Shown here piece by piece: positions 13,472-27,269 of a stretch of 64,000 bases of DNA (position 1 is its first letter; each line of letters opens with the position of its first letter). Where the stretch lies: assembly GCF_003814875.1 (NCBI RefSeq), contig NZ_RKQF01000001.1, positions 10,850,001 to 10,914,000 of the forward strand, read 5' to 3'. Position numbers and translations under genes: made by a program. The DNA is from Streptomyces sp. Ag109_O5-1. GTDB lineage: Bacteria; Actinomycetota; Actinomycetes; Streptomycetales; Streptomycetaceae. The notes beneath the pieces are model-generated. The model searched no databases and was not told the DNA's origin. It worked only from the letters and a program-made list of their open reading frames with translations.

Positions 13472-14746
13472 TCAGGCGAGGGTCACCTCGACCGGCAGCT
13501 TCTTGATCCCGTTGACGAAGTTGGAGCGCACCCGAGGCACCTCGCCGATCAGGCGGATGTCGGCGAGCCGGGGGATCAGCTCCTCGAACATGATCCGGAT
13601 CTCGGTGCGCGCGAGCAGGTTGCCCAGGCACAGGTGCGGGCTGCCCTTGCCGAAGGTTACGTGGTCGTTGTCGGTGCGGGTGACGTCGAAGTCGTACGGG
13701 TTCCCGAAGACCTCCTCGTCGCGGTTGCCCGAGGCGTACCACATGACGACCTTGTCGCCCTCCTTGATGTTCTTGCCGCCGAGCTCGACGTCACGGGTCG
13801 CGGTACGGCGGAAGTGGTAGACGGGGGACGCCCAGCGCAGGAACTCCTCCACCGCCGTCGGGATCAGCGACGGGTCGTCCTTGAGACGGGCCAGCTGCTC
13901 CGGGTGCTGGAGGAGGGCCAGCATGGAGTGGGTGATGGTGTGCCGGGTGGTCTCGTTGCCGGCCACCACCAGGAGCAGGAAGTAGTTGTCGAAGTCCTGG
14001 GCGGAGAGCGGGACTCCGTCGCGCGGGGTGGTGTTGACCAGCTTGGAGATCAGGTCGGTCCCCTCGCCGCCGCGTCGCTGCCGGGCCAACTCCCGCCCGT
14101 ACTCGAAGACTTCGAGCGAGGCGGGGGAGCGGAACGGCAGATCGCGGTACTTCTCGCTCTCCGCGCTGTGCAGCAGGACGTCCGCGTAGTCGGGGTCGGT
14201 GTTCCCGATGATGCGGTTGCCCCAGTCGATCAACTGCTGGTTGTCCTCCGGCGGTACGTCGAGGAGCCGGGCCAGCACGTTGATGGGGAAGTCCGCGGAG
14301 ACCTCGCGCACGAAGTCGAACCGCCCCTTCGCCAGCGCCGCGTCCAGAGTCTTCGCGGTCAGCCCGCGCAGGAAGTCGGTGTAGCTGTTGATGACACCGG
14401 CGCCGAACTGGCGCTGGATCACGCTGCGCAGGGCGCGGTGCCGGACGCCGTCCAGCTCCAGGATCGAGGCGCGCTTCTTGATCTGGTCCTCGTCGACCTC
14501 CTCCAGGTTCACGAACCTGGTGGAGGTGAAGGTCTCGGCGTCCCGGTCGACACGCGCGATGTCGGCGTGCCGGGTGAGCGCCCAGAAACCGGAGTTGGGC
14601 GCCCCCTCGGGCTGCCAGTGCACCGGGTCCTGGTGGCGCAGGGTGTGGAACATCCGCCAGGGGGTCACCCCGTCGGTGAAGTTGTCGAGATTGGCGAGGT
14701 CGACATCAGCGAGGCGCATGGCCTCGACGCCGGTGGTTGTGGTCAT
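13472..14746 (-). CDS. Cytochrome P450 monooxygenase
   Basis: 424 aa from ATG 14746 (AAGGAC upstream); 18 extra upstream codons are open but lack a ribosome binding site. The I-helix oxygen motif is VVAGNETTR, the ExxR motif is EEFLR, and the heme loop is FGKGSPHLCLGNLLAR with the proximal Cys. The extra residue before His is like CYP124/125/142-type heme loops (GPHFCLG). It is soluble and bacterial class I, receiving electrons from a ferredoxin. It follows the glutamine-synthetase-like gene with a 10-bp gap, and the ferredoxin and reductase are divergent nearby, so the redox partners are probably those two. Substrate unknown; by context a gamma-glutamylated or aromatic amine. Confidence 0.93.
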   Translation of the reverse strand: MTTTTGVEAMRLADVDLANLDNFTDGVTPWRMFHTLRHQDPVHWQPEGAPNSGFWALTRHADIARVDRDAETFTSTRFVNLEEVDEDQIKKRASILELDGVRHRALRSVIQRQFGAGVINSYTDFLRGLTAKTLDAALAKGRFDFVREVSADFPINVLARLLDVPPEDNQQLIDWGNRIIGNTDPDYADVLLHSAESEKYRDLPFRSPASLEVFEYGRELARQRRGGEGTDLISKLVNTTPRDGVPLSAQDFDNYFLLLVVAGNETTRHTITHSMLALLQHPEQLARLKDDPSLIPTAVEEFLRWASPVYHFRRTATRDVELGGKNIKEGDKVVMWYASGNRDEEVFGNPYDFDVTRTDNDHVTFGKGSPHLCLGNLLARTEIRIMFEELIPRLADIRLIGEVPRVRSNFVNGIKKLPVEVTLA

Positions 14747-14756
14747 CGTCGGTCCT

Positions 14757-16106
14757 TCACAGGTGGTAGGCGTACTCGGTGAACTCCCAGTCGGTGACAT
14801 GCCGTTGGAAGCGTTCGACCTCGTTGCGTTTGTAGGAGAGGTAGGAGTCGGTGAAGTCCTTGCCGAGCAGCTCGGCCAGGTCGGTGTCCGCCTCCAGCGC
14901 GTCCAGCGCGGCGGACAGGTCCATGGGCAGCACGGCCGCCTTCGCGGTGTCGTAGCCGTAGCCCTCCAGCGGGGCGGGTGGCTCCTCGCCCGCCAGGACG
15001 CCGAGCAGGGCGGCGGCCGTGGTCGCGGCGATCGCCAGATACGGGTTGGCGCTCGCGTCGCCGAGCCGCAGTTCGAGCCGGGCGCCGGTGCCCCGCTCGG
15101 GCGGTACGCGGACCATCGCGCTGCGGTTGTCCAGGCCCCAGTCGATCAGCCAGGGGGCCAGGGTGTCCGGGCCGAAGCGCTTGTACGAGTTGACGGTCGG
15201 GTTGAGCAGTGCGGCCAGGGCGGGCGCGTGGGCGAGGATGCCGGCGATCGCGTGCCGGGCGGTGGCCGACAGGCCGTACGCGCCGGACGGATCGTCGAAG
15301 GTGTTGCGGCCCTCGGGATCGGCGCACGACAGATGCAGATGGAAGCCGGAGCCGCCCGCGTCGTTGAAGGGCTTCGCCATGAAGGTGGCGAGTCGCCCCT
15401 CGCGCCGGGCCAGTTCCTTGATCGCGGCCTTGAAGCGGAACGCCCGGTCGGCGGCGGACAGGGCCTCGGAGTGCAGCAGGTTGATCTCGAACTGCCCGCC
15501 GTCGAACTCGTGATTCCCGCTCAGCACCCCGATGCCGAGCCCGCGGACCTGGCGCAGGGTGCGCAACAGGTGGTTGTCGGGGTCGGCGCGCAGCCCGGCG
15601 GTGTAGACGACACCGGGGGTGGCGCCGTAGCGGCGCCAGCCACCGCCCGCTTCCTGTTCGCACAGGAAGTACTCCAGTTCGGGCCCGACGACCGGGCTCA
15701 GCCCGTGCTCGTGGCACCGGTCCAGGACCGACCGCAGCAGGTCGCGCGGCGACTCGGGGGCCGGTGCCCCGGTTGCCGGATCGACGACGTCGGCCAGACA
15801 GGCCGCCACCCCCGGCTCCCAGGGGAGCGCGACCAGGGTGCCCAGGTCCGGCCGTACGCAGATGTCGGGCAGACCCGCGTCCAGACCGCCGCTGACCGGG
15901 ACCACATCACCCTGCGGGCTGGTGTGGTAGACGGCCCGGCAGAAGGCCAGCCCGTGCTCGACCGCCCTGGGCAGTTCCTCCAGGAGCACATCTCGGGCCC
16001 GGTCGGTGCCGATGAGGTCGGGGTATGTCACCCGGACGACATCGATGCCGTCGGCGGCGAGCCGGTCCATGTGCCGGCGGACTTCTGACAGGTCTTGATC
16101 GCTCAC
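14757..16106 (-). CDS. Glutamine-synthetase-like gamma-glutamyl-amine ligase
   Basis: 449 aa from GTG 16106, preceded by GAGGAGA. The GS catalytic core is intact: the Glu residues of GPELEYFL and GNHEFDGGQFEINLLHSE, the ATP loop FMAKPFNDAGGSGFHLHLS, and the C-terminal PPERGTGARLELRLGDASANPYL. It lacks features of housekeeping GlnA (adenylylation loop, usual length 470 aa) and resembles PuuA/IpuC-type ligases that couple glutamate to an amine using ATP. This agrees with the PuuC- and PuuD-like genes 8-10 kb away under the same operator. It is the first gene of a leftward operon with the P450. The amine substrate cannot be read from the sequence. Confidence 0.85.
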   Translation of the reverse strand: MSDQDLSEVRRHMDRLAADGIDVVRVTYPDLIGTDRARDVLLEELPRAVEHGLAFCRAVYHTSPQGDVVPVSGGLDAGLPDICVRPDLGTLVALPWEPGVAACLADVVDPATGAPAPESPRDLLRSVLDRCHEHGLSPVVGPELEYFLCEQEAGGGWRRYGATPGVVYTAGLRADPDNHLLRTLRQVRGLGIGVLSGNHEFDGGQFEINLLHSEALSAADRAFRFKAAIKELARREGRLATFMAKPFNDAGGSGFHLHLSCADPEGRNTFDDPSGAYGLSATARHAIAGILAHAPALAALLNPTVNSYKRFGPDTLAPWLIDWGLDNRSAMVRVPPERGTGARLELRLGDASANPYLAIAATTAAALLGVLAGEEPPAPLEGYGYDTAKAAVLPMDLSAALDALEADTDLAELLGKDFTDSYLSYKRNEVERFQRHVTDWEFTEYAYHL

Positions 16107-16244
16107 CGTTGTCTCCTCGGGCGGACGGACGTCGGGGCACCACCTCCGGGAATCCGGGAATCCGGGGCTCCAGGGATCCCGGGAGGCGGGTGGCGTGGCA
16201 GGTGGTGGCCGGGGCGCGATGTCGCGGGCAGCTCCCGGCCTGGT

Positions 16245-16285
16245 GTTTGAAGCCAAACGGTAGGCAGGGGCCCACCCTGCCGCAA
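16245..16285 (-). promoter_or_regulatory. Promoter and MarR-type operator of the GS-like/P450 operon
   Basis: On the minus strand TTGCGG (16280-16285) and TACCGT (16257-16262) are separated by exactly 17 bp. The operator GTTTGAAGCCAAACG (16245-16259, written on +), with TTTG-aagc-CAAA symmetry, overlaps the end of the -10 box and the start site. It is identical to the copy at 16352-16366. Confidence 0.7.
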
Positions 16286-16304
16286 GAGGGCGAGGCAAAG
16301 AATT

Positions 16305-16366
16305 TATCCATACGGATAGGTATTGACCAGGGGGTGCTGGCTGCCTACCTTGTTTGAAGCCAAACG
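16305..16366 (+). promoter_or_regulatory. Promoter and MarR-type operator of the ferredoxin operon
   Basis: TTGACC (16323-16328) and TACCTT (16346-16351) are 17 bp apart, and the operator GTTTGAAGCCAAACG (16352-16366) follows directly at the start site. The arrangement mirrors that of the divergent promoter. Upstream of the -35 box is a different palindrome, TATCCatacGGATA (16305-16318), midway between the two promoters; it may bind another regulator or activator. Confidence 0.7.
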
Positions 16367-16479
16367 AGTTCGGGTCGCGGTTCGCCGCAACCCGTTGGCA
16401 GGGCCCGGTCGGTACGACCGGCCGGGCCCACTACTTCCCATCCCTTCCCTTCGCTTCCGCTCCCTCAGGAGGACCGGCC

Positions 16480-16668
16480 ATGAAGGTCGTCGTCGACATG
16501 AACAAGTGCCAGGACCACGGCCAGTGCGTCTTCGCGGCTCCCGACGTCTTCTCGCTGGACGACGCGGGCCACCTCGTGTACGTCTCCGACCCGGACGACG
16601 CGCTGCGCGACGAGGTCGAGGAAGCGGCCGACGTCTGCCCGCTCCAGGCCATCCGGATCGAGGGCTGA
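16480..16668 (+). CDS. P450-type [3Fe-4S]/[4Fe-4S] ferredoxin
   Basis: 62 aa from ATG 16480 with AGGAGG upstream; an in-frame extension to 16354 lacks a ribosome binding site and overlaps the operator. The cluster ligands are Cys10 and Cys16 in CQDHGQC and Cys53 in CPLQAI, i.e. the CxxHxxC...CP pattern of actinobacterial P450 ferredoxins, in which His13 replaces the fourth Cys. It carries electrons from the reductase encoded next to a P450, most likely the divergent one. Confidence 0.93.
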   Translation: MKVVVDMNKCQDHGQCVFAAPDVFSLDDAGHLVYVSDPDDALRDEVEEAADVCPLQAIRIEG

Positions 16669-16669
16669 G

Positions 16670-17878
16670 ATGAACGCGCGCATCGTGGTGGCCGGTGCCT
16701 CCATGGCCGGCCTGCGCGCCGCCGAGCAGCTGCGCGCGGCGGGCTGGACCGGCGCGATCACCGTCGTCGGCGACGAGCCGCACATGCCCTACAACCGGCC
16801 GCCCCTCTCCAAGGAGGTCCTGGCCGGCAAGGTCCCCTTCGAGTCCCTCGCCTTCCGCCCGCGCGCGAGCGTGTCGGACGTGGAGTGGCGGCTGGGGCGG
16901 CGGGTCGTCTCCGCCGGGCTGGACGAGCGGACGGTCCGGCTCGACGACGGCGGCGCGCTGTCGTACGACGGACTGGTCGTCGCCACCGGGATGCGCCCCC
17001 GGCGCCTGAACTGCCCGGGACCGCTCGCCGGCCGGCACACGGTCCGCACCCTCGACGACGCTCAGGGCCTGCGTGAGGAGCTGACCCGGCCCGGTGCCCG
17101 GGTCGTCGTGGTCGGAGCCGGCTTCATCGGCTGCGAGGTCGCCGCGACCGCGGTGGGACTCGGTGTCGCCGAGGTGACGGTCGTCGATCCGCTGCCGCTG
17201 CCGATGGCCGGGCCGCTCGGAGAGCTGCTGGGCCGGGCACTGCTCGCGCGGCACGAGGACCGTGGAGTGCGCTTCGCGCTGGGCGTGGGGGTGGCCGGGT
17301 TCACCGGCGAGGACCGGGTCACCGGTGTGGTGCTGAGTGACGGTTCCGTGCTCCCCGCGGACGTGGTGGTCGAGTCGGTCGGATCGGTCGCCAACACGGA
17401 GTGGCTCGACGGCAACGGTCTCGATCTGCGAGACGGCGTGCTGACCGACGAACTGCTGCGGGTCGGCGGCCGCCCGGAGGTGGTGGCCGTCGGTGACGTG
17501 GCCCGGTTCCCCAACGCCCGCTACGACGGCGTCCCGCGCCGCGTCGAGCACTGGTCCATCCCGACCGACAGCGCCAAGCACGCGGCGAAGGCGCTGGTGC
17601 GTCATCTCTCCGGAGAACAGGAGGAGTCGACGCCGTTCGCGCCGCTTCCCACCTTCTGGAGCGACCAGCACGACTTCCGGCTCCAGTCCTTCGGCGCGCC
17701 CGTGCTCGGCAAGGACGACGTCCGGGTGCTCGACGGCGACTCCGACGGGGACGTACTCGTCGGCTACCACCGCGACGGCCGGCTCGTCGGCGTCGTGGCG
17801 CTCGGCGGCCAGGCCGTCGCCGCGTCCGCCGCCCGTTACCGCACCGAACTGCTCAAGCAGCCCGCCCTCACTGTTTAA
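16670..17878 (+). CDS. NAD(P)H-dependent ferredoxin reductase (FAD)
   Basis: 402 aa; the ATG lies one base after the ferredoxin stop, so the two are coupled. An N-terminal FAD Rossmann motif (IVVAGASMAGLRAAEQLR) is followed by the conserved YNRPPLSKEVL, a second dinucleotide motif for NAD(P)H (VVVVGAGFIGCEVAATA) at about residue 145, and the FAD-binding VAVGDVARFPN at about 275. This is the rubredoxin/putidaredoxin-reductase type that serves class I P450 systems. A C-terminal reductase domain closes the chain. Confidence 0.93.
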   Translation: MNARIVVAGASMAGLRAAEQLRAAGWTGAITVVGDEPHMPYNRPPLSKEVLAGKVPFESLAFRPRASVSDVEWRLGRRVVSAGLDERTVRLDDGGALSYDGLVVATGMRPRRLNCPGPLAGRHTVRTLDDAQGLREELTRPGARVVVVGAGFIGCEVAATAVGLGVAEVTVVDPLPLPMAGPLGELLGRALLARHEDRGVRFALGVGVAGFTGEDRVTGVVLSDGSVLPADVVVESVGSVANTEWLDGNGLDLRDGVLTDELLRVGGRPEVVAVGDVARFPNARYDGVPRRVEHWSIPTDSAKHAAKALVRHLSGEQEESTPFAPLPTFWSDQHDFRLQSFGAPVLGKDDVRVLDGDSDGDVLVGYHRDGRLVGVVALGGQAVAASAARYRTELLKQPALTV

Positions 17879-17888
17879 GGAGCCCCAA

Positions 17889-18701
17889 GTGGCCAGTCTC
17901 CGTGGTTACTTCCATCCGAAGACGGCGAGCGGTGCCTCGTCGCTGATTCCCTCGCCGCCGTGGCGGTACTCCGGTGACCTGCTCACGATCGAGTACCGGA
18001 CCGACCCCGCGCGGGTGCGCGAACTGCTGCCCGAGCCGCTGGAGTTGGCCGACGAGGATCCTGGCGCGGTCGCGCTGATCTGGGCCGACTGGCAGTCGTG
18101 CTCGGCGTCGGGGGAGGAGCTGCTCGACCCGGTGCTCTCCCAGTACAAGGAGGCGTTCGCGGTCGTGCGCTGCAAGTACCGGGGGCAGACGTACTCGCGG
18201 TGCGTGTACATCTGGGTCGACAAGGACTTCGCGATCGCCCGCGGGCTGCACCAGGGGTATCCGAAGAAGCTCGGGTCGATCCACCAGACGCGACCCCATC
18301 CGTACGGGCCCGCTCCGCGGATCGAGGCCGGCGCCCGGTTCGGGGCGACGCTGGCGGCTGCGGACCGGCGGTTGGCCCAGGCGGTGGTGACGCTGCGGGA
18401 GCCTTCCGGGACGAACGGGTTCGTCAATGGACATCCGATGGCTCATCACCGGTGGCTGCCGTCGATCGAGAAGGGGAAGGGGCTGGCGCTGGATGAGTTG
18501 ATCGAGTCGGGGGCGGCGTCCTTCGAGGGCGGTCAGCCGTGGGTCGGTGACGCCGAGTTGGAGCTGTTCGAGGCGCCTACGGAGGAACTGGCCCGGCTGG
18601 AGATCCGGGAGCCGATCGCCGCGTACTACCGGCAGGTCGGGGTGGTGTGGGATGGAGGGCGGCTGCTGGAGAGCGGGACGTCCGGAGCGGCTGCCGGGTG
18701 A
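17889..18701 (+). CDS. Acetoacetate decarboxylase-family protein
   Basis: 270 aa from GTG 17889 (AAGGAGC upstream), 10 bp after the reductase gene. The family core is visible: PPWRYSGDLLTIEYRTDPARV at the N-terminus and the Schiff-base region GYPKKLGSIH, where the first of the paired lysines is the catalytic residue of true acetoacetate decarboxylase. Family members also act as hydratases or aldolase-dehydratases on 2-oxo acids, and in a meta-cleavage operon such a reaction on a ring-cleavage product is plausible. The exact reaction is not assignable. Confidence 0.8.
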   Translation: MASLRGYFHPKTASGASSLIPSPPWRYSGDLLTIEYRTDPARVRELLPEPLELADEDPGAVALIWADWQSCSASGEELLDPVLSQYKEAFAVVRCKYRGQTYSRCVYIWVDKDFAIARGLHQGYPKKLGSIHQTRPHPYGPAPRIEAGARFGATLAAADRRLAQAVVTLREPSGTNGFVNGHPMAHHRWLPSIEKGKGLALDELIESGAASFEGGQPWVGDAELELFEAPTEELARLEIREPIAAYYRQVGVVWDGGRLLESGTSGAAAG

Positions 18702-18784: not shown

Positions 18785-18826
18785 AGGTAAGCGGTAGTCC
18801 CCTTGGCCAAGATTGGATCCTCGCTC

Positions 18827-20287
18827 ATGTCCTACAAGACCATTGTCGCCGGAGTCTCCGTCGACACCCGGCACTGGATCGGCGGTGAACGTGTCGCCTC
18901 CGCCGAGACGTTCACCGACCACTCACCCATCGACGGGCAGCCGATCGGCGAGATCGCCCGCGGCGGTCCCGCCGAAGCCCGAGCCGCCGTCGCCGCCGCC
19001 AAGGCGGCCTTCCCCGGCTGGGCCGCCACCCCCCGTGCCGAGCGCGCGCGCCTCCTCCATGCCATCGCCGACGGTGTCGAGAAGCGGATCGAAGAGCTCG
19101 CGATCGTCGAGACCACCGACAATGGCGCTCTGCTCCGGTCCCACCGCCGTGGCGTCATGCCCCGCGTCGCTCACAACTTCCGGTTCTTCGCCGACTGGCT
19201 GCTGACGCTGGAGCACGACGACTTCGAGACCCGCGGGCACACCAACCACGTCAGCTGGGACCCCGCCGGCCCCTGCGTGCTGATCACCCCGTGGAACGCC
19301 CCGCTGATGCTGGCCACCTGGAAGGTCGCCCCGGCGCTCGCCGCCGGGAACACCGTCGTCCTGAAGCCCGCCGAGTGGTCGCCGCTGACCGCCTCCCTCC
19401 TCGCCGACATCGCCGCCGAGGCCGGACTGCCGGCCGGTGTCCTGAACGTCGTGCAGGGTTACGGCGCCGAGATCGGCGACGCGCTGACCTCGCACCCGGA
19501 CGTGCGCCGGATCAGCTTCACCGGGTCCGTGCCCACCGCCCAGCGGATCGCCGCCTCGGCCGCCGCCAATCTGACACCCCTGAGTCTCGAACTCGGCGGA
19601 AAGTCGCCCCTGTTGGTGTTCGCCGACGCCGATCTCGACCTCGCCGTGGACCTCGCGGTGGAGCAGTACGACAACGCCGGGCAGGTTTGTCTGGCGGGCA
19701 CTCGGTTGCTCGTCGAGGAGTCCGTCGCCGAGGAGTTCACCCGACGGTTCGTGGCGAAGGCCAGTGCCTTGCAGCAGGGTGACCCGCGGGACGAGAGCAC
19801 CGATGGCGGGCCCAATATCCACCCCCGTCAGCTGGAGAAGATCGATGGGTTCGTGCAGCGGGCGATCGCGGCCGGGGCCCGTGCCGTGATCGGAGGCAGC
19901 CGCAACGACGGGCAGTTCTACGCGCCCACCCTGCTCACCGATGTCGCGCAGGACAGCGAGGTCGTCCAGGAGGAGGTCTTCGGGCCGGTCCTGACCCTCC
20001 AGACCTTCGCCGACGAGGACGAGGCCGTCCGGCTCGCCAACGACACCCGGTTCGGGCTCGCCGCCACCCTTGCCACCGGCGACCCCGAGTGCGCCGAGCG
20101 CGTCACCGCACAGCTGGTCGCGGGCACGGTCTGGGTCAACTGCTTCTTCGTCCGCGACCTCCAGGCACCCTTCGGCGGCTCCCGCCTCTCCGGTGTCGGA
20201 CGCGAGGGCGGCACCTGGAGCTTCGACTTCTACTGCGACCTGAAGAACACCGTCACCGCACCGAAGGGCTGGAAGGACCATGGGTGA
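18827..20287 (+). CDS. Aldehyde dehydrogenase, HpaE-like (5-carboxymethyl-2-hydroxymuconate semialdehyde type)
   Basis: 486 aa from ATG 18827; a TTG at 18803 is in frame but has no ribosome binding site. Catalytic Cys is in NAGQVCLAGTRLLV, the general base Glu in LELGGKSP, and the NAD site is SFTGSVPTAQRIA. LRDLQAPFGGSRLSGVGREGG near the C-terminus is typical of HpaE/ring-cleavage semialdehyde dehydrogenases. It overlaps the extradiol dioxygenase gene by 8 bp, which supports a role in oxidising the semialdehyde made by that enzyme. Confidence 0.85.
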   Translation: MSYKTIVAGVSVDTRHWIGGERVASAETFTDHSPIDGQPIGEIARGGPAEARAAVAAAKAAFPGWAATPRAERARLLHAIADGVEKRIEELAIVETTDNGALLRSHRRGVMPRVAHNFRFFADWLLTLEHDDFETRGHTNHVSWDPAGPCVLITPWNAPLMLATWKVAPALAAGNTVVLKPAEWSPLTASLLADIAAEAGLPAGVLNVVQGYGAEIGDALTSHPDVRRISFTGSVPTAQRIAASAAANLTPLSLELGGKSPLLVFADADLDLAVDLAVEQYDNAGQVCLAGTRLLVEESVAEEFTRRFVAKASALQQGDPRDESTDGGPNIHPRQLEKIDGFVQRAIAAGARAVIGGSRNDGQFYAPTLLTDVAQDSEVVQEEVFGPVLTLQTFADEDEAVRLANDTRFGLAATLATGDPECAERVTAQLVAGTVWVNCFFVRDLQAPFGGSRLSGVGREGGTWSFDFYCDLKNTVTAPKGWKDHG

Positions 20288-21218
20288 GATCGTCGGGGCG
20301 GGGCTCCTCGCCCACGTCCCCACCATCGTGCTGCCGGAGGCCGACCGGCTGGAGCTCAACGAGGGCAAGGAGATCACCCTCGTCACCGGTCTGCGGCAGC
20401 TGCGCCGGGAGGTGTTCGAGCGGGACGACTACGACACCGTCGTCGTCCTGGACTCGCACTGGGCGACCACCGTCGAGTTCGTGGTCACCGCCCAGCAGCG
20501 GCGGGCCGGGCTGTTCACCTCCGAGGAACTGCCGCGCGGGATGTGCCGGATGCCGTACGACTTTCCCGGGGATCCCGAACTCGCCCGCAACATCGAGAGG
20601 TTCGCCGACAAGCACGGCACCTGGATCACCGCGATCGACGACGAGTACCTGCCGATCTACTACGCCACCATCAACCTCTGGAAGTACCTGGGGGAAGGCC
20701 TGCCCGACAAGCGGTGGGTGACCATCGGGGTCTGCCAGACCGGGGACATGGAGGACCATCTGCGGCTCGGCCGGGCGCTCGCCGACGGGATCGCCGCCAC
20801 CCCGGGGCGGCGGGTGCTGCTCATCGCCTCCGGCGCCCTCTCCCACACCTTCTGGCCGCTGCGCGAACTGCGCGACCACGAGGCCAGCGATCCGGTGCAC
20901 ATCCGTACGCCCGAGGCGCGGGAAGCGGACTGCGAACGCATCGGGTGGTTCAAGGAGGGCCGGCACGACAAAGTTCTCGACACCATGGACGCGTTCTGGA
21001 AGTTCAAGCCCGAGGCGAAGTTCTTCCACTACCTGATGATGGCCGGCGCCCTCGGCGAACAGGCCTGCGTGGCCAAGGCCCGGCAGTACGGGGAGTACGA
21101 GAACTCCGTCGGCACCGGCCAGGTCCACCTGTGGTTCGACCGGCCCGCCGACGGCTGGACCGGCACGGGCGAGCCCATGACGACCACCGCACCCCACCAC
21201 CCGCACCGCCGCGCCTAG
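20280..21218 (+). CDS. Class III extradiol ring-cleavage dioxygenase (homoprotocatechuate 2,3-dioxygenase-like)
   Basis: 312 aa; the ATG is inside the end of the dehydrogenase gene. The protein has the LigB/HpaD fold pattern: N-terminal GLLAHVPTIVLPEA with a metal-binding His, VVVLDSHWATTVEF with the second His, IASGALSHTFWPL with the conserved Ser-His pair, and a Glu in the C-terminal half. The family opens catecholic rings next to the hydroxyls with Fe(II). With HpaE- and HpaG-like neighbours the likely substrate is 3,4-dihydroxyphenylacetate or a close relative. The C-terminal 20 residues are a disordered Thr/Pro/His tail. Confidence 0.87.
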   Translation: MGEIVGAGLLAHVPTIVLPEADRLELNEGKEITLVTGLRQLRREVFERDDYDTVVVLDSHWATTVEFVVTAQQRRAGLFTSEELPRGMCRMPYDFPGDPELARNIERFADKHGTWITAIDDEYLPIYYATINLWKYLGEGLPDKRWVTIGVCQTGDMEDHLRLGRALADGIAATPGRRVLLIASGALSHTFWPLRELRDHEASDPVHIRTPEAREADCERIGWFKEGRHDKVLDTMDAFWKFKPEAKFFHYLMMAGALGEQACVAKARQYGEYENSVGTGQVHLWFDRPADGWTGTGEPMTTTAPHHPHRRA

Positions 21219-21229: not shown

Positions 21230-22075
21230 ATGCCCGAATACCGCCGCATCCTCCTCGACGGCGCCGCCGTCCAGGTCACCGTCGACGGGGACGAACTCGT
21301 CGCCGGGGACGGGCGTCGAGTGAAGACCGAGGACGCTCAGCACCTGCCGCCGGTCGTGCCGTCCAAGGTCGTCGCCGTACATCTCAACCACCGCAGCCGT
21401 GTCGACGAGTTCCGGATCGAACTGCCCGACACCCCGACCTACTTCCACAAGCCGACGTCCTCCCTCAACTCCCACAAGGGCGCCATCGTCCGGCCCGAGG
21501 GCTGCAAGTGGCTCAACTACGAGGGCGAGGTCGCCATCGTGATCGGCAGGACCGCGCGGAACGTCTCACCGACCGAGGCGGGGGAGTACATCGCCGGGTA
21601 CACCATCGCCAACGACTACGGGCTGCACGACTTCCGCGACACCGACGCCGGGTCCATGCTGCGGGTGAAGGGGTCGGACACGCTGTGCCCGCTCGGCCCG
21701 GGGCTGGTCACCGACTGGGACTTCCACGGCAAGCGGCTGCGGACGTACGTCAACGGCGAGGTCGTCCAGGACGGATCCACCGACGAGATGAAGTGGGACA
21801 TGCACTACCTCGTCGCCGACATCGCCCGCACGATCACGCTGTACCCGGGCGATGTGCTGCTCTCCGGCACCCCGGCCAACTCCCGCCCGGTCCAGCCCGG
21901 CGACGTCGTCGAGGTCGAGGTCGAAGGCCTCGGCAAGCTCACCAACCACATCGTCACCGGACCCACCCCGATCCGTACCGACGTCGGGGCGCAGCCCACC
22001 GAGTCCGAGGAGGTGCTGTCCACCGCGCTCGGCGGCGACTGGGAATTCCGTGGCATCCGCCCGCCCCGCCGGTAG
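21230..22075 (+). CDS. Fumarylacetoacetate hydrolase-family protein (HpaG-like)
   Basis: 281 aa from ATG 21230 with AGGAGG upstream. The FAH core contains YFHKPTSSLNSHKGAIVRPEGC, the metal ligands in LNYEGEVAIVIG, GYTIANDYGLHDFRDTD, KGSDTLCPLGP and the C-terminal LLSGTPANSRPVQPGDVVEVEVEGLG. In homoprotocatechuate degradation HpaG isomerises and decarboxylates the ring-cleavage acid. It is the last enzyme gene before the TetR gene. HpaH (hydratase) and HpaI (aldolase) are not seen in the window. Confidence 0.87.
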   Translation: MPEYRRILLDGAAVQVTVDGDELVAGDGRRVKTEDAQHLPPVVPSKVVAVHLNHRSRVDEFRIELPDTPTYFHKPTSSLNSHKGAIVRPEGCKWLNYEGEVAIVIGRTARNVSPTEAGEYIAGYTIANDYGLHDFRDTDAGSMLRVKGSDTLCPLGPGLVTDWDFHGKRLRTYVNGEVVQDGSTDEMKWDMHYLVADIARTITLYPGDVLLSGTPANSRPVQPGDVVEVEVEGLGKLTNHIVTGPTPIRTDVGAQPTESEEVLSTALGGDWEFRGIRPPRR

Positions 22076-22118: not shown

Positions 22119-22745
22119 ATGACCGAATCCGCCGGGACCCCGCAGCCGTCCGACGCCCGGTCGCGCAAGCGGCTCGGGTACGGGGAGGGGCGCGAGGCGC
22201 TGCTCAAGGCCGCGGTCCGGGTCGTCGGGCGGCGGGGACTGCGCCACCTCACCTACCGTGCCGTGGCCGAGGAAGCCGGCGTCACCCATGGTCTGGTCGT
22301 CCACCACTTCGGCTCCCGGGACGCGCTGATCGAGGAGTCCCTCGCCTACGCCGTGCGCCTGAGCCTCAGCAGCAGCCTGCTGGAGCCCGGCACCGGGAAG
22401 CCCGAGGACTTCGTGAGCGGGCTGACGGACATGGTCGAGGACGAGGCGGACGTGCAGGCGTACCAGTACGAGCTGCTCCTGGAGGCCCGCCGCCGCCCCG
22501 AGCTGCTGCCGCAGGTCCGCGAGCTGTACGACGAGTACTTCGGCGCCTCGCAGCGCGAGCTGGCCCGCATACTGCCCGACGACGCGAGCCCGGCGTTCAA
22601 CCGGCTGGTCTTCGCCGCACTGGACGGCCTGGTGCTGCACCAGCTCACCGGTATCGGTGACCGTGCCGACACCGAGGCCGCCCTGGCCGAGCTGCGTGCG
22701 CTGCTGCGCACCCTGGGTGAGCGGCCGCCGGAGAACCGCGACTGA
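22119..22745 (+). CDS. TetR-family transcriptional regulator
   Basis: 208 aa from ATG 22119; the ribosome binding site is weak (GGGTAGGG). The helix-turn-helix at about residues 25-70 reads GLRHLTYRAVAEEAGVTHGLVVHHFGSRDALIEESL. The remainder is a helical ligand domain with a ...VFAALDGLVLHQL motif. As last gene of the ferredoxin-dioxygenase operon it may sense a pathway intermediate. Its own target site was not identified; the repeated operator in the region fits the MarR protein better. Confidence 0.88.
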   Translation: MTESAGTPQPSDARSRKRLGYGEGREALLKAAVRVVGRRGLRHLTYRAVAEEAGVTHGLVVHHFGSRDALIEESLAYAVRLSLSSSLLEPGTGKPEDFVSGLTDMVEDEADVQAYQYELLLEARRRPELLPQVRELYDEYFGASQRELARILPDDASPAFNRLVFAALDGLVLHQLTGIGDRADTEAALAELRALLRTLGERPPENRD

Positions 22746-22759
22746 GCGTGCCCGACCCG

Positions 22760-22791: not shown

Positions 22792-22845
22792 GCCATGCCC
22801 CGGGAGCGGTGGGTTTCCCCGGCGTAAATTCCCTTCCCGACCCCC

Positions 22846-22899
22846 TTGCCAGATGGATAGCTCCAGCACACCATAAGGCAACTCGTTTGGCTCAAAACG
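22846..22899 (+). promoter_or_regulatory. Promoter and MarR-type operator of the permease-puuC-puuD operon
   Basis: CGTTTGGCTCAAAACG (22884-22899) is the reverse-complement version of the operator found at 16245 and 16352, with one base shifted (CGTTT-N6-AAACG symmetry). Upstream TTGCCA (22846-22851) and CACCAT (22869-22874) are 17 bp apart; the operator starts 10 bp after the -10 box. Confidence 0.6.
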
Positions 22900-22933
22900 A
22901 AAACTCCTCCCTTCCCCTCAGCAGGTGATCCGA

Positions 22934-24376
22934 GTGGACAGTCAGACGGTCGACGCCTCTCCGCAGACCGGAGAGGGCCGCCCCGCGGCCACCCTCAAAC
23001 GCAACGCCCTGGGTGTCCTGGGCATCCTCTTCTTCGTCCTGTCCGCGCAGGCGCCGCTCACGGGTATCGCGGGCGCCGTCCCGATCGCCGTCGCCGTCGG
23101 CAACGGAGCCGGAGCCCCGGCCGCCTACGCCATCGCCGGAGCGGTGATCCTGCTCTTCTCCGTGGGCTTCGTGGCCATGGGCCGGCACGTCGTGAACGCC
23201 GGCGCCTTCTACACGTACATCGGCAAGGGACTGGGGCGGACGACGGGCAGCGGCAGCGCGGCCGTGGCGCTGTTCGCCTACTGCACGGTCCAGGCCGCGA
23301 TGTACGGCCTGTACGGATTCACCGTCAGCGGGCTGGTGGAGCACTACTCCGGCGCGCACATCGCCTGGTGGGTGTGGGCCCTGGCGACCATGGCCGTCGT
23401 CCAGGTGCTGGGCGCGGCAGGCATCGAACTGGGCGCCAAGGTGCTCGCCGTGTTCGTGCTCGCCGAGTTCAGCATCCTGCTCGTCTTCGCGCTGGTCACC
23501 TTCTTCAAGGGCGGCGGACCCGAGGGCCTCGACTTCGGCGGTACGTTCTCGCCGGGCGCCGTGCTCCAGGGTGCGCCCGGCGTGGCCCTGATGTTCGCCG
23601 TCGCCTCCATGTTCGGCTTCGAGGCCACCGCCATCTACGGCGAGGAGGCCCGCGAGCCCCACAAGACCGTCCCCCGGGCCACCTATCTGTCGGTCACCGT
23701 GGTCACCGGCTTCTTCGCCTTCGTCTCCTGGATGCTGGTCTCGTCGTACGGCCCCTCGAAGGTCACTGCGGCCGCGGGCAAGGCCCTCTCCGGCGGTGAC
23801 TCCACGGTGTTCGTGTTCGCGCCGATCGCCGCCCAGTTCGGCGGCTGGGTCAACGACGTCCTGCCGATCCTGCTCGCCACCTCGCTCTTCGCCGGTATCC
23901 TCGCCTTCCACAACTCCGCCAACCGCTACCTGTTCTCCCTCAGCCGCGAGGGCCTGCTGCCGGAGCGGCTGCGCACCCTCAACCACCGGCACTCGCCCTG
24001 GGTCGCGGGCATCGTGCAGACGGCGATCGCGGTGCTCCTGGTGGTGCCCTTCGCCCTCGCCGGCAAGGACCCGGTCCTCACCCTCTTCTCCTGGTTCAGC
24101 GGTGTCGGGGTCCTGGCCTGCATGCTCCTGTACTTCCTGACCTCGGTCTCGGTGATCGTCTTCTTCCGCCGCCGGCGCCTCGACACCCGGCCCTGGAACA
24201 CCCTGATCGCCCCCGCCCTCGGCGCACTCGGCATCGCCGCCGTGATCTGGCTCGTGCTCACCAACTTCACGACCCTCATCGGCGGCGACGCCACCACGGC
24301 CACCTGGCTGGTCCTGGCCGTGCCCGCGGTGCTGCTCCTCGGAGCGGGGACCGCGCGGATCGTCCACGGTCGCTGA
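22934..24376 (+). CDS. APC-family amino acid/amine permease
   Basis: 480 aa from GTG 22934 (CAGGTGA upstream; GTG 22925 is an alternative). About 12 membrane segments. Helix 1 carries the APC signature FVLSAQAPLTGIAGAVPIAV, and FGFEATAIYGEEAREPHKTVPRATYLSV marks the helix 6-7 region typical of APC transporters. First gene of the operon with the PuuC- and PuuD-like enzymes, so it probably imports the amine or amino-acid-like substrate of the pathway. Under the same operator as the GS-like/P450 and ferredoxin operons. Confidence 0.88.
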   Translation: MDSQTVDASPQTGEGRPAATLKRNALGVLGILFFVLSAQAPLTGIAGAVPIAVAVGNGAGAPAAYAIAGAVILLFSVGFVAMGRHVVNAGAFYTYIGKGLGRTTGSGSAAVALFAYCTVQAAMYGLYGFTVSGLVEHYSGAHIAWWVWALATMAVVQVLGAAGIELGAKVLAVFVLAEFSILLVFALVTFFKGGGPEGLDFGGTFSPGAVLQGAPGVALMFAVASMFGFEATAIYGEEAREPHKTVPRATYLSVTVVTGFFAFVSWMLVSSYGPSKVTAAAGKALSGGDSTVFVFAPIAAQFGGWVNDVLPILLATSLFAGILAFHNSANRYLFSLSREGLLPERLRTLNHRHSPWVAGIVQTAIAVLLVVPFALAGKDPVLTLFSWFSGVGVLACMLLYFLTSVSVIVFFRRRRLDTRPWNTLIAPALGALGIAAVIWLVLTNFTTLIGGDATTATWLVLAVPAVLLLGAGTARIVHGR

Positions 24377-24388
24377 CCCACCTCCGCC

Positions 24389-24415
24389 GGGCCCGGCCGC
24401 CGAGCGGCCGGGCCC
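24389..24415. terminator. Intercistronic hairpin between permease and puuC-like gene
   Basis: GGGCCCGGCCGC (24389-24400) and GCGGCCGGGCCC (24404-24415) form a perfect 12-bp stem with a CGA loop. Because an operon seems to continue, it may be a partial terminator or an mRNA stabiliser that lets the permease be expressed at a different level from the enzymes. Confidence 0.65.
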
Positions 24416-24436
24416 CGACCTCCCGACGGGATCACC

Positions 24437-25927
24437 ATGCTGGATCTGACCCACGACGAACTGCTCGGCCGGGCCAAGGCGCTCGACCTGCCCGCACAGC
24501 ACCACATCGACGGGACCGACGAACCCGGCGGAGGAGCGGCCTTCGAGGTCGTCTCGCCGCGCGACGGGCAGGTCCTCACCCGGGTCGGCGACGCCGGCCA
24601 GGCCGAGGTCGACCACGCGGTGGCCGCCGCCCGGCGCGCCTTCGACTCCGGCCCCTGGCCGCAGCTGGCCCCCGCCGAACGCGGCCGGATCCTGCTGCGC
24701 ATGGCCGAATTCCTCGAAGAACACCGGGAGAGGCTCGCCCTCACCATCACCCTGGAGATGGGCAAGCCGATCACCGAGGCGTACGCCATCGAACTCCGTG
24801 CCGCGATCAACACCTTCCGCTGGTACGGGCAGTTGGCCGACAAGCTCACCGACGAGTCCCCGCGGACCGCCCCCGACGCCCTCGCGCTGGTCACCCGCGA
24901 GCCGACGGGTGTCGTCGGCGCAGTGGTCCCCTGGAACTTCCCCCTCACCCTTGCCAGTTGGAAGGTGGCCCCGGCGCTCGCGGCCGGCTGCACGGTGGTG
25001 TTGAAGCCGTCCGAGTCCTCTCCGCTCTCCGCCCTGCTGCTGGGCCGGATCGGCACCGAGGCCGGACTTCCGCCGGGCGTCCTGAACGTCGTCACCGGTG
25101 ACGGCCCCACCGCCGGGCGGGCCCTCGGCCTCCACCCGGACGTCGACGTCCTGGCCTTCACCGGCTCCACCGCCGTCGGCCGCCACTTCCTGCGCTACTC
25201 CGCGGACTCCAACCTCAAGCGGGTCTGGCTGGAGCTGGGCGGCAAGTCGCCCAACATCATCCTTCCCGACGCCCCCGACCTGGACCGGGCCGCCGCGACC
25301 GCCGCCTGGGGCATCTTCTTCAACCAGGGCGAGATGTGCACCGCGCCTTCCCGGCTCCTCGTGCACTCCTCGATCGCCGAGCGGGTGACGGACGCGATCG
25401 TGCGCCGGGCCGAGGAGCTGCGGATCGGCGACCCCCTCGACCCGGCGACCGAGATGGGCGCGCTGGTCGGGGAGGCCCACCTGGGGCGGGTGCAGGACCA
25501 CATCACCACCGGGTGCGAGCAGGGCGCCCGGCTGCGCACGGGTGGCGCACGCACCCTCGCCGAGACCGGCGGCAGCTATCTGCGGCCGGCCGTCTTCGAC
25601 CGCGTCGACCCCGGTATGCGCCTCGCCCGGGAGGAGATCTTCGGCCCCGTCCTGTCCATCCTGGCCTTCGACGACCTCGACGAGGCGGTACGGCTCGCCA
25701 ACGCCACCGAGTACGGCCTCGCCGCCGGCCTGTGGACCTCTGACCTGTCCACCGCCCACAAGGTCTCGCGCGCGCTCAAGGCCGGGACGGTCTGGGTCAA
25801 CTGCTACGAGGAGGGCGACCTGACCGTCCCCTTCGGTGGCATGAAGCAGTCCGGCAACGGCCGCGACAAGTCCGCCCACGCGATCGACAAGTACACCGAA
25901 CTCAAGACGACCTGGATCCAGCTGTGA
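24437..25927 (+). CDS. puuC: Aldehyde dehydrogenase, PuuC-like (gamma-glutamyl-amino-aldehyde dehydrogenase)
   Basis: 496 aa from ATG 24437. Catalytic Cys in FFNQGEMCTAPSRLLV, Glu in LELGGKSPNIIL, NAD loop FTGSTAVGRHFL. The C-terminus FGGMKQSGNGRDKSAHAID followed by KYTELKTTWIQL closely follows the PuuC pattern (KQSGNGRDKS...ELKTIW). In the Puu pathway this enzyme oxidises a gamma-glutamylated amino-aldehyde to the acid. The gene symbol is by family; the real substrate is probably set by the pathway amine. Stop overlaps the next start (GTGA). Confidence 0.82.
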   Translation: MLDLTHDELLGRAKALDLPAQHHIDGTDEPGGGAAFEVVSPRDGQVLTRVGDAGQAEVDHAVAAARRAFDSGPWPQLAPAERGRILLRMAEFLEEHRERLALTITLEMGKPITEAYAIELRAAINTFRWYGQLADKLTDESPRTAPDALALVTREPTGVVGAVVPWNFPLTLASWKVAPALAAGCTVVLKPSESSPLSALLLGRIGTEAGLPPGVLNVVTGDGPTAGRALGLHPDVDVLAFTGSTAVGRHFLRYSADSNLKRVWLELGGKSPNIILPDAPDLDRAAATAAWGIFFNQGEMCTAPSRLLVHSSIAERVTDAIVRRAEELRIGDPLDPATEMGALVGEAHLGRVQDHITTGCEQGARLRTGGARTLAETGGSYLRPAVFDRVDPGMRLAREEIFGPVLSILAFDDLDEAVRLANATEYGLAAGLWTSDLSTAHKVSRALKAGTVWVNCYEEGDLTVPFGGMKQSGNGRDKSAHAIDKYTELKTTWIQL

Positions 25928-26610
25928 CCCGTCCGCTCATCGCCGTACCCGCCCGGTTCTCCGCCACCACCTCGGCCCTGCGGTTCGCCGCCGAGGTCAA
26001 CGCCCGGTCCCTGATCGAGGCGGTCTGGCGGGCCGGCGGCGAGCCCGCGAGCATCCATCCCGCCGACACCGGCGCGGCCGACCGGCTGGCCCGCTTCGAC
26101 GGAGTGCTGCTGCCCGGCGGTGGCGACCTCGCCCCGTACCGCTACGGCGCAGGCGACACCCACGACAGCGTCTACGACGTCGACGACCTCCAGGACACCT
26201 TCGACCTCGAAGTCGCCCGCCACGCCGTCGAGTCGGGCCTGCCCCTGCTCGCGATCTGCCGTGGACTCCAGGCCGTGAACGTGGCGTTGGGCGGCACACT
26301 GGAGCAGGACATGGACACCGGCCATCGCCATCTGGTCCACCCGGTGCGTATCCGCGCCGGCTCCTGGCTCGAACAGGCCACCGGGGCCGAGAAGCTGGAC
26401 GCCTCCTGCTACCACCACCAGCGTGTGGACCGCCTCGGCACCGGCCTCACCGTCACCGCGGCCGCGGCGGACGGCACGGTCGAGGGCGTCGAACTCGCCG
26501 ACGGCCGGGGCTGGTTCACCGCCGTGCAGTGGCACCCCGAGGACACCGCGCACGAAGACCCCGTCCAGCAGCGGCTGTTCGACGCGTTCGTCCGGGCCGC
26601 GGCCGCCTGA
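25924..26610 (+). CDS. puuD: Gamma-glutamyl hydrolase of the PuuD type (class I glutamine amidotransferase-like)
   Basis: 228 aa from GTG 25924, overlapping puuC by 4 bp. The nucleophile elbow is LLAICRGLQAVNVALGG with Cys112; His204 and Glu206 in AVQWHPEDT complete the triad. LLPGGGDLAPYRYG and the long DTFDLEVARHAV segment match gamma-glutamyl-GABA hydrolases. It would remove glutamate from the gamma-glutamylated acid made by the PuuC-like enzyme, closing the cycle opened by the GS-like ligase. Confidence 0.87.
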   Translation: MTRPLIAVPARFSATTSALRFAAEVNARSLIEAVWRAGGEPASIHPADTGAADRLARFDGVLLPGGGDLAPYRYGAGDTHDSVYDVDDLQDTFDLEVARHAVESGLPLLAICRGLQAVNVALGGTLEQDMDTGHRHLVHPVRIRAGSWLEQATGAEKLDASCYHHQRVDRLGTGLTVTAAAADGTVEGVELADGRGWFTAVQWHPEDTAHEDPVQQRLFDAFVRAAAA

Positions 26611-26623
26611 TCAGCCGCCCTGA

Positions 26624-27196
26624 TCAGGCCTTGGGGCGTCGTCCGCTGCGGCGCGGCGCGGGCTCGGCCCCGTCCAGCAGCTCGCGCCGTCGCTCCTCGC
26701 CGTGCTCCTCCACCTGGAGCACGACCCGCCGCAGCCCCTCCGCGAGGCTGCGGCACTCGGCGTCGCTGAGCCCGGAGGTCACGAAGGCCTCCTCCTCGTT
26801 GAACGCCGGGAACACCCGCTGCATCAGCTCCTCGCCCTTGTCGGTGAGGCTGAGCAGCACCAGGCGGCCGTCGCTCGGATGCCCGGCCCGGCTCAGCAGC
26901 CCACGCGACTCCAGTGTCCGGGCCACCCCGGTGAGCGTGCCCTTGGAGATCCCGGCCTCCTCCGCCACATGCCGGGTCTCCGACTCGCCCCACACCCATA
27001 CGACCCACAGCACCACGAACGCCGTCCAGGTCAGGTCCGAGCCGCGCAGCACCGAGTTCTCCAGGTGCTGGCGCACGGCGGAGGCGGCCCGGTAGATGTT
27101 CGCCACGGCGGCCATCTGGTCCCGGCGGATCGGGGTGCCGCCGAGCTTCGCCGAGGCGAGCTTCTCGGCTTCGGTGATGGACCGCTGACCGGGCAC
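26624..27196 (-). CDS. MarR-family repressor, probable regulator of the amine/aromatic catabolic regulon
   Basis: 190 aa from GTG 27196 with AAGGAG upstream; an upstream in-frame start at 27250 lies close to the operator and lacks a ribosome binding site. Winged helix at about residues 60-130: HVAEEAGISKGTLTGVARTLESRGLLSRAGHPSDGRLVLLSLTDKG, described here as a domain. The C-terminal tail is Arg/Pro-rich. It is convergent with puuD, and the operator shared by the three catabolic promoters lies just upstream of its own start, so it is the natural regulator of the whole block. Confidence 0.88.
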   Translation of the reverse strand: MPGQRSITEAEKLASAKLGGTPIRRDQMAAVANIYRAASAVRQHLENSVLRGSDLTWTAFVVLWVVWVWGESETRHVAEEAGISKGTLTGVARTLESRGLLSRAGHPSDGRLVLLSLTDKGEELMQRVFPAFNEEEAFVTSGLSDAECRSLAEGLRRVVLQVEEHGEERRRELLDGAEPAPRRSGRRPKA

Positions 27197-27253
27197 GGAC
27201 GACTCCTTCGCAATCTTCGCCGGGGACCGTGCGGGCCGGGACGGCCACACGTT

Positions 27254-27269
27254 CGTTCGGCCTCAAATT
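27254..27269 (-). promoter_or_regulatory. Operator upstream of the marR gene
   Basis: CGTTCGGCCTCAAATT (+ strand) matches CGTTTGGCTTCAAACA, the reverse complement of the catabolic operator, at 12 of 16 positions. It lies 58 bp upstream of the GTG start and suggests autoregulation. Confidence 0.55.

Follow-up and report, generated by a model that had tools for sequence, protein, structure and literature searches.

A Putative Streptomyces Gene Island for Ring-First Catabolism of γ-Glutamyl-Capped Arylethylamines

Introduction

The subject of this report is a gene island in Streptomyces sp. Ag109_O5-1, located in a window of 64,000 nucleotides (the window being the whole stretch of DNA analysed, positions 10,850,001 to 10,914,000 of contig NZ_RKQF01000001.1). 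The island extends from a cytochrome P450 gene (13472) to a marR gene (27250), within a genome of 12.0 Mb, and the closest relatives of the region are found in Streptomyces. It is proposed, with modest confidence, that this island, which is probably MarR-controlled, serves the ring-first catabolism of a tyramine- or dopamine-type arylethylamine whose amine is kept capped. The fuller form of this proposal, in which belief only just outweighs doubt, is that the capped catechol ring is opened first to give pyruvate and γ-glutamyl-aminobutyraldehyde, the skeleton ending as γ-aminobutyrate (GABA) without an amine oxidase; that an enzyme of the acetoacetate decarboxylase (ADC) superfamily replaces HpaH/HpaI; that P450 and decarboxylase are exchangeable front ends, for a monophenol amine or L-DOPA; and that the core is common to Streptomyces, other actinobacterial families, and an alphaproteobacterial plasmid. 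The substrate, the step order, and each reaction are deduced from sequence.

The original prediction had combined a γ-glutamylated arylethylamine with meta cleavage of its ring. This broad idea is supported, while its chemistry, in which the P450 possibly replaced the oxidase PuuB and an arylacetate was released before ring opening, is not.

The ring-first order is supported by variants without P450 that keep the ligase, dioxygenase, PuuC, PuuD, and a tyrosine-decarboxylase-like gene (genome G773 included), and by a single divergent promoter region of Streptomyces lunaelactis that bears the operator and serves both PuuC-PuuD and the ring-cleavage operon. It is also supported by decarboxylase genes in 15 and GABA-transaminase-like genes in 12 of 36 distant loci, and by the presence of an ADC-like gene in an island without HpaH or HpaI.

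The Proposed Pathway

The permease would import the amine, which in sister loci may be made by an enzyme resembling tyrosine or DOPA decarboxylase. The glutamine-synthetase-like ligase would then form the γ-glutamylamide, and the P450, with its ferredoxin and reductase, would add a second ring hydroxyl, raising the substrate from the tyramine to the dopamine level. The class III dioxygenase would open the capped catechol ring of this γ-glutamyl catecholamine by 2,3 cleavage, and the HpaE-like aldehyde dehydrogenase (ALDH) would oxidise the ring-fission semialdehyde. Decarboxylation is assigned, as a prediction, to the FAH protein, which resembles the C-terminal domain of HpaG, the isomerisation being either spontaneous or performed by the FAH protein itself. 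Hydration and retro-aldol cleavage by the ADC-like protein would release pyruvate and 4-(γ-glutamylamino)butanal. Finally, the PuuC-like enzyme would convert this aldehyde to γ-Glu-GABA, and the PuuD-like enzyme would split the latter into glutamate and GABA.

The logic of this scheme lies in its carbon bookkeeping. In the homoprotocatechuate pathway, ring cleavage, oxidation, isomerisation, decarboxylation, hydration, and aldol cleavage lead to CO2, pyruvate, and succinic semialdehyde, the last of which contains two ring carbons and the two carbons of the CH2COOH side chain. With CH2CH2-NH-γGlu in place of CH2COOH, the same chemistry would therefore yield 4-(γ-glutamylamino)butanal. This compound is the substrate of PuuC, whose product is in turn the substrate of PuuD. 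Because the bookkeeping ends at the PuuC substrate, both Puu-like enzymes would be explained, PuuB would be unnecessary, and a GABA transaminase would be a natural neighbour. The cap itself may have a chemical purpose. After 2,3-cleavage of DOPA, the amine cyclises with the ring-fission product, and the glutamyl group would prevent a free amine from doing so.

Layout of the Island

All the genes that the original prediction had named were recovered in their places as open reading frames (ORFs) and by Pfam and NCBIfam models. They are listed below with the operator sites; coordinates are those of the window.

13472..14746, minus strand: cytochrome P450 (Pfam p450; PDB sequence search)
14757..16106, minus strand: glutamine-synthetase-like ligase (Gln-synt_C; start uncertain, frame open to 16298)
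16245..16258, no strand: operator 1, GTTTGAAGCCAAAC (motif search)
16352..16365, no strand: operator 2, GTTTGAAGCCAAAC (motif search)
16480..16668, plus strand: short ferredoxin of 62 aa, probable P450 redox partner (Fer4_13/Fer4_15)
16670..17878, plus strand: FAD-dependent ferredoxin reductase (Pyr_redox_2 and Reductase_C)
17889..18701, plus strand: acetoacetate-decarboxylase-superfamily (ADC-like) protein (PF06314)
18803..20287, plus strand: HpaE-like ALDH (HpaE best model)
20280..21218, plus strand: class III extradiol dioxygenase (LigB domain)
21230..22075, plus strand: FAH-family protein (HpaG C-terminal domain model)
22119..22745, plus strand: TetR regulator (TetR_N, TetR_C_31)
22885..22898, no strand: operator 3, GTTTGNNNNCAAAC with one mismatch, before the permease (motif search)
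22925..24376, plus strand: APC-type amine/amino acid permease (AA_permease_2)
24437..25927, plus strand: PuuC-like aldehyde dehydrogenase (PuuC best model)
25924..26610, plus strand: PuuD-like γ-glutamyl hydrolase (Peptidase_C26)
26624..27250, minus strand: MarR regulator (PF01047)
27255..27268, no strand: weak operator 4, GTTTGNNNNCAAAC with two mismatches, before marR (motif search)

An isochorismatase-family hydrolase gene (12902-13462) adjoins the P450 gene. It was considered as a member of the island and rejected, and it probably lies outside because the same position is so occupied in only 2 of 80 related loci.

Conservation in Streptomyces and Variants without P450

When GTDB genomes were scanned with the dioxygenase, 303 of 324 pattern matches were confirmed as relatives, and the best 80 were kept, a set biased to close relatives. 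In these 80 loci the HpaE-like ALDH and the ADC-like gene are always present, followed by the FAH gene (79), the ligase (75), the permease (73), the P450 (72), and MarR (45). Eight loci are without P450. Six of them are cut by a contig end (L026, L027, L028, L040, L056, and L067), and the other two (L068 and L080) are decarboxylase variants. The gene order in L080 is ligase, MarR, ALDH, dioxygenase, FAH, pyridoxal-phosphate- (PLP-) dependent decarboxylase, ADC, PuuC, and PuuD, with no P450, ferredoxin, or reductase; L068 is similar apart from its ligase gene, which is fragmentary.

Relatives of the L080 decarboxylase occur in 58 of the 392 Streptomyces genomes drawn, and 20 of 62 listed places, mostly the best, were fetched with their neighbourhoods. 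In 10 of these 20 the decarboxylase gene adjoins a dioxygenase gene (L179-L188), and in none of the 10 is there a P450 within the stretch. One genome, G773, a single contig of 100% completeness with no P450 ortholog, holds in one stretch the ligase, MarR, a permease-like gene, ADC, PuuD, PuuC, ALDH, dioxygenase, FAH, and decarboxylase. The same layout is annotated on plasmid pSLUN1 of S. lunaelactis, of which the plasmid only was examined. Seven other genomes without P450 (L180-L186) keep the ligase, MarR, ALDH, dioxygenase, FAH, decarboxylase, and ADC.

The Ligase and Its Substrate

The ligase falls below the cut-offs of the GlnA, GSIII, and PuuA models. With 260.7 bits on the PuuA-type model GGputSyn, whose cut-off is 650, it is not a PuuA equivalog. 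In the alignment, the position of Glu-327 in the E327 flap of GlnA is occupied by leucine, while the Asp-50 position is not surely alignable. Glu-327 of GlnA is described as ammonium-specific, and GlnA4 is also without it, in an excerpt of PMC6529630. A glutamine synthetase (GS) homologue of Pseudomonas aeruginosa, PA5508/PauA7, prefers catecholamines (Ladner 2012, as cited in an excerpt of PMC6478659). The original view of the protein as a probable γ-glutamylamine ligase rather than a glutamine synthetase is supported by the Glu-327 to Leu exchange, with a catecholamine-preferring homologue on record.

An arylethylamine-type substrate, also part of the original prediction, is supported because tyrosine-decarboxylase-like genes sit inside the sister islands. 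The L080 decarboxylase is closest to tyrosine decarboxylases, below the curated cut-offs, and one distant type of decarboxylase has DOPA decarboxylase among its nearest matches. The window's own genome carries a tyrosine-decarboxylase-like gene at C1:5967979-5969334 (L177), which is 79% identical to the variant-island gene and has no adjoining dioxygenase.

The cap could also be placed on an aromatic ring amine, according to the logic of aniline and naphthylamine degradation (AtdA1/NpaA1), the P450 then oxygenating the glutamylanilide and the dioxygenase cleaving a catechol or aminophenol. Known pathways do glutamylate aromatic amines before oxygenation, as stated in an excerpt of PMC11335346, and 2-aminophenol dioxygenases are found among the LigB relatives. 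Nevertheless this is very improbable, as the amino-acid decarboxylase genes of the sister clusters point to an arylethylamine, PuuC and PuuD would have no place, and hydroxymuconic semialdehyde dehydrogenase models fit the ALDH less well than HpaE does.

Ring-Cleavage Enzymes and the ADC-Like Protein

Residue conservation was counted per family among relatives, with identity floors that vary from 30 to 60% by family. The dioxygenase was originally called a class III extradiol enzyme, and this is confirmed by its LigB domain (83.2 bits) and by residues H12, H60, H189, and E245, kept in at least 97% of 126 relatives, 36 of which are below 65% identity. These residues presumably correspond to the His/His/Glu set and the catalytic His of LigB. 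The enzyme is not an HpaD equivalog, reaching 121.3 bits on a model whose cut-off is 315.95. When 27 dioxygenases were placed in a tree, one side of a branch was taken by the 20 that come from ligase and/or ADC contexts, and the hpa group stood apart; the separating branch has a support of 88/98, and a single change suffices in 86% of bootstrap trees. In this tree L132 and L216 are unlabelled, L241 was put in the hpa group though its neighbourhood shows no HpaH/HpaI, and L224 has a long branch and an unsure position.

Public records call the dioxygenase 3,4-dihydroxyphenylacetate 2,3-dioxygenase or even catechol 1,2-dioxygenase (the latter in L222:13001-13975 and L221:14001-14858). Catechol 1,2-dioxygenase is an intradiol enzyme of an unrelated family.

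HpaE is the best model for the first ALDH (526.9 bits, below the cut-off of 638.35). The FAH protein scores 215 bits on the C-terminal and 118.5 on the N-terminal domain model of HpaG, and it matches residues 210-426 of 1gtt. The nearest solved structures to the ADC-like protein are 6eej/4zbo/4zbt, MppR, and 5upb. Lysines K126/K127 of its YPKK motif are kept in at least 97% of 108 relatives (19 below 65% identity), and a lysine of this motif presumably forms the Schiff base.

HpaF, HpaH, and HpaI are absent from the island ORFs, the rest of the genome not having been searched for HpaH/HpaI. The hpa-type loci L224, L239, L240, and L242 carry HpaH and/or HpaI and neither a ligase nor an ADC-like gene; two of the four, L224 and L242, are also without an annotated HpaF-type isomerase. 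The HpaH/HpaI pair seems to be replaced in the island by the ADC-like protein, which is proposed, by analogy, to be a hydratase-aldolase releasing pyruvate.

Two of the hpa-type loci deserve description. In L224 (Sphingobium pTomTYG64a) a 38% identical dioxygenase relative stands beside hpaE, HpaG-like, hydratase, and HpcH aldolase genes. The hpa cluster of L239 (Phaeobacter porticola pP97_b) has two adjacent hpaD-named genes, and among the genes that separate hpaD from hpaH there is one for a pyridoxal-dependent decarboxylase.

The P450 and Its Role

In a PDB sequence search, the P450 is nearest to an ancestral reconstruction of CYP125 and to CYP124. Its E299/R302 pair and heme cysteine C371 (numbered on the 422-aa reading) are kept in at least 97% of 86 relatives, of which 14 are below 65% identity. 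It is proposed to be the ring hydroxylase of the capped arylethylamine. It may be needed only for a monophenol amine, and loci that start from L-DOPA could dispense with it.

In a whole-genome search of 12 Streptomyces genomes, the window's own included, a P450 ortholog was found in four (92-100% identity) and not in eight (best match 40-42%), and these eight have the dioxygenase/decarboxylase island and the ligase. The original suggestion that the P450 stands in for PuuB is consequently rejected as the principal explanation, because genomes carrying the island are without a P450 ortholog and G773, one without P450, still has both PuuC and PuuD.

A second P450 gene lies between tetR and the permease gene in 14 of the 80 loci, in 13 of them with a ferredoxin gene (L225:14672-17234; L226:14487-17347; Streptomyces canus plasmid NZ_CP107732.1). 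S. canus also has an F420-dependent oxidoreductase gene and, beyond PuuD, GcvT-like, PurU, and FolD genes. The S. canus extra genes suggest that methyl groups are removed, with oxidation of the one-carbon unit, and that the substrate range is wider.

Such genes raise the question of whether the main P450 is itself a demethylase, acting in a ring-first route on a methylated or methoxylated phenethylamine of the hordenine or 3-methoxytyramine type. The recurrent second P450 would fit this, as would the neighbouring genes: of the 80 loci, 10 have FolD in the stored flanks, 4 have PurU, and 1 has a GcvT-like gene, all three occurring in S. canus. The extra genes, however, do not replace the main P450, and they have no close match in the window, where the sole responses come from its own P450 (24%) and ferredoxin (57%). 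A demethylase is considered improbable.

PuuC-Like and PuuD-Like Enzymes

PuuC is the best model for the second ALDH (557.5 bits, below the cut-off of 850), whose C301 and E266 are kept in at least 97% of 76 relatives of at least 55% identity, two being below 65%. The PuuD-like protein scores 159.6 bits on Peptidase_C26 and 70 bits on the PuuD model, below its cut-off of 266; C112, H204, and E206 are kept in at least 97% of 75 relatives of at least 60% identity, again with two below 65%. No PuuB oxidase is present among the island ORFs, the rest of the genome not having been searched for PuuB or other amine oxidases.

A constant separation of Puu-like and ring-cleavage genes, which the original prediction had set against itself, is not seen in the 80 nearest loci, where the PuuC-like gene accompanies the ring-cleavage genes in 72 and the PuuD-like gene in 73, although both are scarce in the distant loci described below. 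Eight loci lack PuuC or PuuD. Four of them are cut (L046, L056, L078, and L088), L018, L051, and L055 are uncut and have neither, and L024 holds fragments.

The oxidation of the amine could precede that of the ring. The arylethylamine would be glutamylated and oxidised by the P450 or another enzyme at the carbon beside the nitrogen, the PuuC-like enzyme would give the arylacetate, PuuD would remove the cap, and an HpaD-like dioxygenase would open 3,4-dihydroxyphenylacetate. This order is regarded as unlikely. It draws some strength from the PuuC-like ALDH, which scores well on phenylacetaldehyde dehydrogenase models too, and from the resemblance of ALDH, FAH, and dioxygenase to Hpa enzymes; an unlinked amine oxidase is also possible, none having been searched for outside the island. 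Yet it is hard to reconcile with island genomes that have no P450 ortholog, G773 among them with PuuC and PuuD, and with the absence of an amine oxidase from the island ORFs. The amide cap should, moreover, shield the nitrogen from oxidases, and PuuD would be superfluous if the P450 dealkylated the amide. Lastly, the dioxygenase is far under the HpaD cut-off and in a separate clade, in an island without HpaF, HpaH, or HpaI, and this leaves the arylacetate release of the original prediction without support.

The Operator and Its Regulator

The original prediction had described a single repeated operator linking the operons, and both the sites and their conservation in the 80 loci bear it out. 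There are two exact GTTTGNNNNCAAAC sites between the ligase and ferredoxin genes, besides the imperfect ones before the permease and marR genes. Exact GTTTGRNNNCAAAC occurs at 3 places in the 12 Mb genome, two inside the island and the third at 7,532,801. With one mismatch allowed, a genome-wide search gave 22 rows against 16 for a control pattern, which is no clear operator excess, and the weight of the evidence therefore lies on the exact sites and on conservation. In the 80 related loci (1.6 Mb), which are not independent of one another, 267 matches with at most one mismatch were counted, against 1, 1, and 2 for three control palindromes. The operator is kept in all the decarboxylase variants (L068, L080, and L179-L188), in G773, and in both Embleya loci. 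Of the 8 sites in S. lunaelactis, three lie where the PuuC-PuuD and ring-cleavage (ALDH-dioxygenase-FAH-decarboxylase) genes diverge.

These data support the view that the island is one regulon, of whose operator MarR is, judging from its sequence, the probable reader. This MarR resembles HpaR weakly (43 bits, cut-off 121).

That two unrelated cassettes merely lie side by side is hardly to be believed. The parts are separable, as MarR stands beside the island in only 45 of 80 loci and PuuC/PuuD are missing in a few; against this, the operator is shared, and the set is kept rearranged in Embleya, much of it in other actinobacterial families, and six of its genes in Novosphingobium.

A class I amidotransferase gene, 37% identical to the distant type, is close to operators in each of the two Embleya records, with three and two sites respectively (L243:19279-19472 and L223:23087-24049). 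It may encode a further γ-glutamyl hydrolase of the regulon.

Distant Loci, Embleya, and Novosphingobium

A phylum-wide draw found a dioxygenase relative at E ≤ 1e-20 in 37 of 396 genomes. The distant set of 36 loci, from other actinobacterial families and 31-57% identical, consists of all 34 distant matches of this draw and 2 of 3 later ones, G789 being left out as a contig-end fragment; many of the loci are cut by contig ends. The ALDH is present in 26, ADC in 19, FAH in 18, the ligase in 17, the P450 and a PLP decarboxylase in 15 each, MarR in 13, a GABA-transaminase-like gene in 12, and a second type of class I amidotransferase in 6. Among the 18 loci with at least 6 kb on both sides, these figures are 14 for the ligase, 12 for the P450, 10 for the decarboxylase, and 5 for the GABA-transaminase-like gene. 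The 15 decarboxylases belong to families f15, f16, f50, and f55 and to three sequence types, and are not independent. On the GABA transaminase model, whose cut-off is 507, the GABA-transaminase-like aminotransferases reach 376-385 bits. One locus of 19 kb (L135) unites the decarboxylase, ligase, P450, dioxygenase, ALDH, FAH, ADC, PuuC-like, amidotransferase, and GABA-transaminase-like genes with a further ALDH.

In Embleya the gene set is kept in a rearranged order. In another phylum, plasmid pABRDHK22 of Novosphingobium holds six core genes. Identity to the window is 76% for FAH, 56% for ADC, 55% for the dioxygenase, and 54% for the ALDH, while the ligase (52%) and P450 (45%) are best matched by distant actinobacterial forms; a MarR gene is annotated alongside. 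The gene set is an old functional unit.

Points against the Proposed Pathway

Several observations weigh against the ring-first pathway or parts of it. The P450 is closest to an ancestral CYP125, and the CYP125 family is known for sterol side-chain oxidation, which offers no argument for ring hydroxylation. The distant decarboxylases are similar also to diaminobutyrate and cysteine-sulfinate decarboxylases and so are not exclusively aromatic. All 12 GABA-transaminase-like genes come from one family (f16) and hence represent few independent events. The ADC-like protein is given its aldolase role by superfamily precedent, from the activities that Sbi00515 and Swit_4259 presumably have. No HpaF-type isomerase is present among the island ORFs, and a CHMI match elsewhere in the genome is weak (33 bits). 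A canonical hpa operon elsewhere in the genome was considered and rejected, this being the sole CHMI match; four neighbouring frames were scanned, and the two that could be recognised encode a response regulator and a histidine kinase.

Both Puu-like genes are rare in the distant set, the PuuC-like one occurring in 3 and the PuuD-like one in 4 of 36 loci. L018, L051, and L055 keep the P450 island without adjoining PuuC/PuuD, and in L024 both look broken. Seven variants in which ligase, dioxygenase, and decarboxylase are present (G757, G485, G552, G769, G537, G742, and G449) have no PuuD ortholog (best match 39-42%) and only a 52-53% identical PuuC relative elsewhere in the genome; they therefore count against PuuC/PuuD being indispensable. 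Relocation of PuuC in these seven was rejected, the relatives lying in unrelated loci without operator. A class III aminotransferase near several PuuD-less variants was likewise rejected as support, being about 31-33% identical to the distant GABA-transaminase-like gene and adjoining a LysR-like gene. The Novosphingobium cluster has a second ALDH that is not PuuC-like and no annotated PuuD, and a search there for the operator found none.

Known Systems and Significance

The island shares the glutamyl cap (as proposed), the PuuC-like ALDH, and the PuuD-like hydrolase with the putrescine pathway of E. coli (PuuA-PuuB-PuuC-PuuD), and the last two proposed steps are identical. It differs in having no PuuB among its ORFs, in a ligase that is not a PuuA equivalog, and in an aldehyde that would come from ring cleavage. 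A class III dioxygenase, an HpaE-like ALDH, an FAH protein like the HpaG C-terminal domain, and a MarR-type regulator are common to the island and the homoprotocatechuate meta pathway (HpaDEFGHI). Unlike in the latter, the dioxygenase belongs to another clade, an ADC-like protein is present instead of HpaF/HpaH/HpaI, and the proposed substrate would keep a capped aminoethyl side chain. The mycobacterial mor cluster, for cyclic aliphatic amines, likewise has a P450, ferredoxin, and reductase beside a GS-like gene, but is not known to include a ring dioxygenase.

In the aniline and 1-naphthylamine routes the cap is placed on the ring amine, before the first oxygenation. There too a GS-like ligase (AtdA1, NpaA1) starts aerobic aromatic amine catabolism, according to an excerpt of PMC11335346, whereas in the island the cap would, by the present proposal, stay in place while the ring is cleaved. 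GlnA3/GlnA4 of Streptomyces are also actinobacterial GS-like ligases, with polyamines and ethanolamine given as substrates in an excerpt of PMC6529630. PA5508/PauA7 is similarly a GS homologue, with a preference for catecholamines, and the excerpt of PMC6478659 mentions no ring-cleavage island.

No description of such a pathway was found in the open-licence PMC literature, subscription journals being mostly outside this scope. Each enzyme is of a known kind; what would be new is the order of steps and a cap that outlasts ring cleavage. The gene set looks common, given the 303 related stretches confirmed in one GTDB scan, of which the 80 nearest were read, and each proposed step yields a checkable prediction. 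If true, the pathway would lead from tyramine or dopamine to GABA without an amine oxidase and would explain why the glutamyl cap is there; it would also provide a function for the dioxygenase recorded as 3,4-dihydroxyphenylacetate 2,3-dioxygenase or catechol 1,2-dioxygenase, and a physiological role for an enzyme of the ADC superfamily.

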